NCBI GenBank assembly: GCA_902610585.1
Contig: CACLWE010000004.1
Coordinates: 1-64,000 of the forward strand
Origin: an uncultured Pelagibacteraceae bacterium
GTDB lineage: Bacteria > Pseudomonadota > Alphaproteobacteria > Pelagibacterales > AG-422-B15
Length of the DNA stretch: 64,000 bases
Reading direction: 5' to 3'
In this document: piece after piece, positions 14,434 to 16,461 of the stretch
Numbering within the stretch: the first letter of the stretch is position 1
How the letters are laid out: each line of letters opens with the position of its first letter
Notes under the pieces: model-generated
The model's input: the letters and a program-made list of their open reading frames with translations, nothing else
Databases searched by the model: none
Told to the model about the DNA's origin: nothing
Translations under genes and position numbers: made by a program

Positions 14434-15207
14434 ATGAGCAAGAGATCAAAAAAACTCCCGAAAAAAAGGCAAAATTCTGATTACTGGATATACGGACATC
14501 ATGCTGTGGTTGGGGCTCTAATAAATGAGAATAGAGTTAAATACGAAGTTTATTTCACTTCAGAAGCTGAAAAAAAACTCAAAAAAGAAATAAAATTGCA
14601 AAATATCAATGTCATATCAATTAAAAAAACTAGAGATGAAATTGACTTACTCTTAAAGGGTATCTCAAATCATCAAGGCATTTGTGTAAGAGTTGAAAAA
14701 ATACAAACACCCCAACTTTCAGATTTCATAAAAAATTTAAATGAGGAGAAGTCTATTATCTTTTTATTAGATCAACTTGAAGATCCACAAAATGTCGGTG
14801 CAATTTTTAGATCTGCGCTCGCATTTAATATTGATGGTATAATATTAACAAATAGCAATTCAGTAACTGAGAATTCATTTCTAGCAAAAACTGCATCTAG
14901 TGCCATAGATAAAGTGCCATTTACAAAAATCCAAAATATAAGCTCTTGCATTAAAATATTAAAAGATAATGGTTATTGGATTTATGGCTTAGATATGAGA
15001 GCAAAAAGCTCAATAACAGATATAAAGTTTCCAAAAAAAACCGTTTTTGTTTTAGGATCTGAGAATAAAGGTATGAGAAAAATCACAGCCACGCTATGTG
15101 ACGAGAGTCTTAAGATTAAAATGAATGATAGCCTTGAGAGTTTAAATGTATCAAATACAGCAGCTATAATGATGTTCTATGTTTCAAATATAAACTTAAA
15201 AAGCTAG
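14434..15207 (+). CDS. rlmB: 23S rRNA (guanosine-2'-O-)-methyltransferase RlmB (SpoU/TrmH family)
   Basis: YWIYGHHAVVGALINENR, LDQLEDPQNVGAIFRSALAF, LGSENKGMRK, ESLNVSNTAAIMMF SpoU motifs. Confidence 0.92.
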   Translation: MSKRSKKLPKKRQNSDYWIYGHHAVVGALINENRVKYEVYFTSEAEKKLKKEIKLQNINVISIKKTRDEIDLLLKGISNHQGICVRVEKIQTPQLSDFIKNLNEEKSIIFLLDQLEDPQNVGAIFRSALAFNIDGIILTNSNSVTENSFLAKTASSAIDKVPFTKIQNISSCIKILKDNGYWIYGLDMRAKSSITDIKFPKKTVFVLGSENKGMRKITATLCDESLKIKMNDSLESLNVSNTAAIMMFYVSNINLKS

Positions 15208-15358: not shown

Positions 15359-15434
15359 GCCCCTATAGCTCAATTGGTAGAGCAATTGATTTGTAATCAA
15401 TAGGTTCGCGGTTCAAGTCCGTGTGGGGGCACCA
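15359..15434 (+). tRNA. tRNA-Thr (UGU)
   Basis: gcccctatagctcaattggtagagcaattgatttgtaatcaataggttcgcggttcaagtccgtgtgggggcacca; anticodon TGT. Confidence 0.97.
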
Positions 15435-15466
15435 CTAAATTAGATGAACTACTTCTCGTTAATTAA

Positions 15467-15739
15467 TCAGTCAAGCTCGACTGCGACTGTACCCATCATT
15501 CCACCTGTTGTGGTCATGCCTACAGCTTTACCAGCCGCTGCTCTAATTTCATCGATGTTAGCTTTAACTTGTTCTTCGCTGCTCCAGATAGTCATCGTTC
15601 TAAGTGTTTTTTCACCCGTGACTGTTGCACGCAAATTAGTTGCTCCGTGTTTTTTCATCTCGGGCCAAAAACCTTTCATATTTTCAACGGCATTTTCAAT
15701 ATTTCCGTCAAATTCCCAATCGGTAAAAGATACAAACAT
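15467..15739 (-). CDS. Small hypothetical protein, possibly ferredoxin-like / antibiotic-biosynthesis-monooxygenase-type fold
   Basis: 90 aa MFVSFTDWEFDGNIENAVENMKGFWPEMKKHGATNLRATVTGEKTLRTMTIWSSEEQVKANIDEIRAAAGKAVGMTTTGGMMGTVAVELD; fold assignment is by impression only. Confidence 0.7.
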   Translation of the reverse strand: MFVSFTDWEFDGNIENAVENMKGFWPEMKKHGATNLRATVTGEKTLRTMTIWSSEEQVKANIDEIRAAAGKAVGMTTTGGMMGTVAVELD

Positions 15740-15783
15740 TTATTACTCCATATTTTTTAATAATAATTAGTCAGTATATCGAC

Positions 15784-15835
15784 CAATTGATTTGTAATCA
15801 ATAGATTTGCGGTTCAAGTCCGTGAGGGGGCACCA
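15784..15835 (+). pseudogene. tRNA-Thr 3'-part duplicate (no 5' half)
   Basis: 52-nt caattgatttgtaatcaatagatttgcggttcaagtccgtgagggggcacca matches 15383-15434 at 49/52 positions; the 5' acceptor strand and most of the D-arm are missing. Confidence 0.93.
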
Positions 15836-15840
15836 ATTAT

Positions 15841-16461
15841 TTAATCTGTATAACCCGATATAGATTTTGCAGTAGTACTTTTTTTTATAGTTTTGTTATC
15901 TTTTAAAGTACCAAAGAAATAATCACCGATCATATTTGTAATACCCCAGTTGTAATTCTCATTATGAAAATGATGGCTCATATGAGCATCTCTTAATTTT
16001 TTTCCAATTACTGAAACAGGTTTATACTCTTTAGAATGATGGGCCAAATGAATCCATTCGTACCATAAGTGATAAACTAGATGTCCTGTAAAAGGCACCA
16101 TTGCTACTGGAAAGCTCCAAAGTATAAGTGAATAGAGCAAATATACTTGTCCATATGTATAGATTAAGTATCTCCAAGGCGCAAATTGAAGTTTTATATT
16201 GTCAGGATCTCTATGGTGTCCATGGTGTAGTATAATTTGATATCTTCTGTACCAACCTTCTTTTTTTGTAAGCTCTCTATGTAATTGATACTTATGAACA
16301 TACCATTCATAAAAAGGGGCTAGAATAATTGGTATAAAAAACCAAAATAAATATTCAGACAAAAGTCCATTTGAAACAATATAGTACATTCCAACAACTG
16401 CCATTATGAAGAAGCCATAGATGGTTGAGTGTGAAAAATAGTTTTTAAATACACTTAACAT
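15841..16461 (-). CDS. Sterol desaturase / fatty acid hydroxylase superfamily membrane protein
   Basis: Histidine clusters HHGHH, HLAHHSKE, HMSHHFHNENYNWG with transmembrane segments. Confidence 0.85.
   Translation of the reverse strand: MLSVFKNYFSHSTIYGFFIMAVVGMYYIVSNGLLSEYLFWFFIPIILAPFYEWYVHKYQLHRELTKKEGWYRRYQIILHHGHHRDPDNIKLQFAPWRYLIYTYGQVYLLYSLILWSFPVAMVPFTGHLVYHLWYEWIHLAHHSKEYKPVSVIGKKLRDAHMSHHFHNENYNWGITNMIGDYFFGTLKDNKTIKKSTTAKSISGYTD

Follow-up and report, generated by a model that had tools for sequence, protein, structure and literature searches.

The tRNA-Thr locus

The analysed window is a stretch of 64,000 nt from an uncultured Pelagibacteraceae bacterium, in which a tRNA-Thr(UGU) gene and a second, partial copy of it enclose a small gene. 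The locus contains the following features, with coordinates counted from the first base of the window.

14434-15207 (+): gene for a SpoU/TrmH-family RNA methyltransferase, conserved flank
15359-15434 (+): intact tRNA-Thr(UGU), the attachment gene (ARAGORN)
15383-15434 (+): left copy of the att core (tRNA nt 25-76); T7-like viral attP sites have exactly this core
15383-15783 (+): cassette unit, core to core, 401 bp; the site is empty in 8 relatives
15467-15739 (-): cargo gene for a 90-aa protein with a predicted ferredoxin-like / ABM-like fold (pLDDT 91)
15773-15778 (-): putative -10 box TATACT of the cargo gene, consensus match only
15784-15835 (+): right att core copy, read as the displaced original tRNA 3′ end, decaying, 3 mismatches
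15796-15801 (-): putative -35 box TTGATT, antisense of the right att core, spacer 17, consensus match only
15841-16461 (-): gene of the fatty acid hydroxylase / sterol desaturase family, conserved flank; directly after the tRNA at empty sites

The preliminary description had reported a duplication of the tRNA-Thr 3′ part 401 bp downstream in direct orientation, and the comparison of 15383-15434 with 15784-15835 confirms it: 49 of 52 bases agree in an ungapped alignment, the mismatches lie at tRNA nt 46, 49 and 66, and the second copy lacks the 5′ half. Gapless extension lengthens the repeat to 63 nt (89% identity, spacing 401). The next best 52-nt matches within the window are 27/52 on the + strand and 34/52 on the - strand, the latter in a tRNA-Leu gene. 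A chance origin of the repeat is ruled out, as the best match to the core in 50 Markov-random windows was 31/52. The single 90-aa ORF described between the copies on the opposite strand is likewise the sole supported gene there; a 108-aa ORF (15444-15770, +) overlaps it in antisense, and the frame that is conserved, other orders included, is the 90-aa one. The earlier argument that three mismatches make the event not recent is weak, because a displaced copy is unselected and such copies have decayed to differing extents in different relatives.

Variation of the site among relatives

The site was compared over 43 Pelagibacteraceae genomes of the same genus (labelled G...). An intact tRNA-Thr was found in 34 of the 43, with the same 76 nt in all 34, and the site beside it is polymorphic, occurring in empty, single, double and quadruple states. 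In particular, the empty sites that the preliminary description had proposed to look for exist in eight genomes (G003, G011, G017, G021, G031, G061, G062 and G065), where the fatty acid hydroxylase gene lies within a few bases of the tRNA. The sequence 3′ of the right copy in G059 equals the empty site of G011 over the compared stretch, as expected if the original 3′ end had been displaced. The same 90-aa cassette occurs in 14 of the 43 genomes; its hosts have AG-... names, which we take to denote single-cell genomes, and some of the records are titled MAG.

Moreover, about ten further cargos, mostly single-gene, occupy the tRNA-Thr site in this genus. The units measure 398-909 bp from core to core and hold one or two genes each, as a rule with one non-integrase ORF per unit. 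The cargos include proteins of 119 aa (G004) and 199 aa (G012), a 280-aa HNH nuclease (G035; Pfam HNH 1.4e-9, PADLOC type IV restriction 3.6e-8), and the pairs 103-aa + 72-aa (G032) and 114-aa + 90-aa (G030). The genome G015 has a tandem array of four units of 515, 513, 488 and 400 bp, each ended by a tRNA copy, the fourth being the 90-aa cassette. The arrangement in the window is thus far from uniform among relatives, which show empty sites, other cargos and an array of four. In another genus of the order (L110-L113; G042, G043, G058, G047), larger multi-gene units stand at the same tRNA-Thr; the repeat begins near nt 29 in G042, G043, G058 and G047, the last of which combines the 5′ half of a tRNA with an intact tRNA and a copy of the 3′ part.

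Further, the 90-aa gene has moved independently of its flanks: pairwise identity of the gene is 91-100%, whereas between clades the identity of trmH or of the downstream gene is about 70-78%. At four-fold degenerate sites of such clade pairs, the cargo is 73-97% identical and the flanking genes 22-57%, and G007 and G015 share 273 identical bases. Flanking gene order also varies, with pilus-type genes 3′ of the cassette in G007 and G022 and a different gene preceding the tRNA in G006, G008 and G015. The cassette of G007 combines the left part of one 90-aa cassette type with the right end of another; it looks like a mosaic of the two, which suggests that homologous recombination acts too.

The 90-aa cargo and its putative promoter

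The 90-aa protein has no family match in Pfam or NCBIfam. Its family extends to Rhodobacteraceae, SAR116 and further Alphaproteobacteria, and to one gammaproteobacterial MAG. An early AlphaFold model from 14 near-identical sequences was poor; the model from 28 sequences reached pLDDT 91 and predicts a ferredoxin-like/ABM-like fold, whose best PDB matches are YjcS, SnoaB-like monooxygenases and IsdG/MhuD. The gene is in no viral contig searched and viral proteins give weak fold matches only, and phages as its carriers were rejected on these grounds.

Two further settings of the gene were observed. A Paracoccaceae genome (L204:2588-3532) has it between 81-bp direct repeats close to a tRNA-Thr(UGU), on a contig that also bears a capsid-like gene. 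A second polymorphic locus (L080, L093, L100, L275-L304), between a cupin-like gene and a small DUF1674-like gene, is occupied in some genomes by the same 72-aa gene, the same 90-aa gene or both, and in others is empty; its right edge resembles the att core, and no tRNA is present there.

The motif TTGATT-17-TATA[A/C]T is present in every 90-aa cassette examined and absent from most other cargos. In the window (15773-15801), the putative -35 box of the gene lies in the antisense of the tRNA anticodon arm. The att core may thereby lend a promoter part to the 90-aa cargo, which we offer as a suggestion only, because most other cargos do not fit.

Viral contigs and the attachment core

Viral contigs were scanned for a 35-nt core, which was found in seven. 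Three of them (L175, L177, L181) encode the whole tRNA-Thr. The other four (L176, L178, L179, L180) are T7-like, and their core adjoins the RNA polymerase gene; a tyrosine integrase also adjoins it in L176, L178 and L180, and the L179 contig ends at the core. Like the cassette repeats, the viral core begins at nt 25 of the tRNA, and it extends to nt 76. The L180 integrase is about 38-40% identical to the integrases of HTVC019P-type pelagiphages. Among 385 genomes sampled across the class, of which one was of this genus, the exact 52-nt core was absent from the other 384, a restriction that fits a phage of this genus.

In four relatives, cassette ends are homologous to the arms of the viral sites. 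The L176 arm is matched by the left end of the G022 unit, which is a 90-aa cassette, with a score of 65 (z 24.7) and by the left end of G032 with a score of 56 (z 14.9), the first unit of G015 matches viral arms on both sides (left z 6.1, right z 10.7), and the right end of G012 matches L178/L180 (z 13, with 23 of 24 core-adjoining bases identical); these matches were also scored against a host background, which comes from the same loci, and its few high hits may be these very ends. The viral left arm overlaps the final integrase codons, which encode VVTKLPIDKHIP before the stop, and corresponding integrase C-terminal tails were read in G022 (FVTEKLIDIKSHKG), G032 (TIIDTISHSG) and the first unit of G015 (LPIDNLCDIT), each ended by a stop codon. 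Given these arms and tails, the arm-bearing units most likely descend from integrated phages of this T7-like family. The window's own cassette has no recognisable phage arm, and neither have most 90-aa cassettes compared with the viral arms.

The preliminary description had also pointed to larger islands with integrases at this locus; no integrase was found at the tRNA-Thr locus in same-genus hosts, and the integrase adjoining the core occurs in the T7-like viral contigs instead. The same-genus genomes have two XerC/D-like recombinases and few extra matches (G006, G031), which are not at the tRNA-Thr site. The match of core and arms to viral contigs makes these XerC/D proteins less likely to be the acting recombinase. 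A search of 297 genomes of the order gave no prophage whose integrase is closely related to that of L176, and two weak relatives in another genus, so that the helper is known from viral contigs only. Marine T7-like cyanophages integrate transiently and form no stable lysogens (PMC8776855); by analogy, an integrase could act in trans and leave no prophage, which would fit the absence of prophages here.

Origin of the cassettes

With a probability of about 0.75, we interpret the site as an additive tRNA hot spot for integrase-less, phage-att-bounded, single-gene cassettes resembling cis-mobilizable elements (CIMEs), which temperate T7-like phages either left behind or move in trans. For phages of this kind that infect the SAR11 genus, the 3′ half of tRNA-Thr(UGU) would serve as chromosomal attB, and the 401-bp unit would belong to a pool of small cassettes at that attB, mostly with one gene and none with an integrase. 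Each cassette would bring an att core (nt 25-76) at one end, so that every insertion restores a complete tRNA and displaces the former 3′ end to the distal side; in the window, nt 25-76 of the tRNA-Thr would derive from the cassette, and repeated insertion would give arrays such as the one of four. The cassettes may have arisen by phage insertion, loss of phage genes and retention or capture of one gene, and for those with arms, excision and reinsertion by the phage integrase, acting in trans during a later infection, would be possible in principle. The exact nt 25-76 repeat, the polymorphism of the site, the viral core with its integrase, the arms and tails, the restriction of nearly all hosts to XerC/D-like recombinases, the absence of the exact core from the other 384 genomes of the class sample and the discordance of cargo and flank identities support this reading; the absence of prophages from the 297 genomes, the absence of the 90-aa gene from viral contigs, the armless 90-aa cassettes and the apparent mosaic in G007 count against it. 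Since the window's cassette keeps the core and has no recognisable arms, it is more probably a relic that such an event left in place, and it may still exchange with related cassettes by homologous recombination. Both alternatives of the preliminary description, the scar of an element without its integrase and a tiny cargo mobilised in trans, therefore survive.

Pure prophage decay would make each cassette the end state of a separate phage insertion, with all but the att sites and one passenger deleted and none still moving. The arms and integrase tails in G022, G032 and G015 unit 1, the right arm in G012, the decayed right tRNA copies and the lack of an integrase at the locus are all consistent with it. 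However, distant clades whose flanks are discordant share the same 90-aa and 72-aa genes, which are also found at the second locus. In the 90-aa cassettes, moreover, no phage arm separates the core from the region upstream of the gene, unlike the product of a simple internal deletion; we regard pure decay as possible, at odds well below even. Cassettes could otherwise have spread, with no integrase, by homologous exchange at the conserved tRNA-Thr, its repeats or shared flanks, and the 100% identity of this tRNA throughout the genus, the apparent mosaic in G007 and the lack of an extra integrase in most hosts agree with such exchange. By itself it is an unlikely account, as it creates neither a tRNA 3′ repeat nor tandem arrays of different cargos, and the repeats start at the viral attP start base (tRNA nt 25) and four cassettes have arms. 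Simple tandem duplication of the tRNA 3′ end, a possibility that the preliminary description had named against itself, would give two copies in direct orientation but duplicates neighbouring DNA only, and it is rejected as extremely improbable because the DNA between the copies differs among relatives and includes unrelated genes.

Comparison with known systems

Ca. Actinomarinales (PMC7771536) and Ca. Methylopumilus (PMC10872708) have additive flexible genomic islands with tRNA repeats; those of Ca. Methylopumilus range over 330 bp-42 kb and 1-63 CDS. They share with the present site gene cassettes of variable content that were added at a tRNA and are marked by direct repetition of a piece of it. 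Here the cassettes vary at a single conserved tRNA whose end is repeated directly, and judging by cargo and flank identities they are shared horizontally between species. In contrast to those islands, a SAR11 cassette nearly always consists of one gene, measures about 0.4-0.9 kb and has the nt 25-76 repeat in full, and some cassettes have att arms of phage type and integrase tails that match viral contigs; this is not reported in the consulted passages of the two papers.

CIMEs have lost their integration genes and kept their att sites (PMC5704250). The cassettes resemble them in these respects and in tandem accretion at a tRNA 3′ end: core copies stand at both ends as attL and attR (G015 unit 1 alone has both arms, G022, G032 and G012 have one each, and none was recognised in the window), and integration and transfer genes are absent. 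CIMEs are, however, decayed ICEs or IMEs, which are tied to conjugation, whereas the relative here is a T7-like phage, matched by arms and integrase tail, and the element is one gene long; the cassettes are therefore CIME-like rather than strict CIMEs.

The HTVC019P-type temperate pelagiphages are T7-like SAR11 podophages with a tyrosine integrase and a tRNA-Leu target (PMC6811365). L176, L178 and L180 are likewise T7-like, with a tyrosine integrase and a core that matches a tRNA gene, but the viral contigs here carry the 3′ part of tRNA-Thr(UGU) instead of tRNA-Leu; compared with such phages, the cassettes lack all phage genes except the integrase tail. In HTVC109P (L234:2470-2520), an apparent 5′ part of tRNA-Leu lies between integrase and RNA polymerase. 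Tycheposons, described in PMC10872708 as 4-200 kb with a recombinase, share the association of tRNA and tyrosine recombinase with cargo in streamlined marine bacteria; unlike them, the units here are 398-909 bp with one or two genes, and the only XerC/D-like recombinases lie elsewhere in the genome. Phage satellites of the PICI/PICMI kind are also a poor match, as the cassettes have neither an integrase of their own nor phage-hijacking genes.

One-gene cassettes at a phage attachment site, with arms still visible, are a concrete and testable route of gene gain, and point to how streamlined SAR11-group ocean bacteria acquire genes. A broader and tentative idea, which we hold to be rather less probable than its opposite, is that streamlined SAR11 bacteria have a common pool of such mobile cassettes, which T7-like phages would move in trans while transiently integrated and which would be the phage-integrase counterpart of integron cassettes or MITEs, with the core lending a -35 box to some cargos. 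The cassettes resemble those of integrons in their single-gene arrays with one recombination site per gene, and appear to differ from them in two respects: no array-linked integron integrase was found in the same-genus hosts, and the recombination site would be a tRNA 3′ end. Against the open-access literature, additive islands with tRNA repeats were already known, and what appears new is the single-gene arrays together with their link to phage arms.
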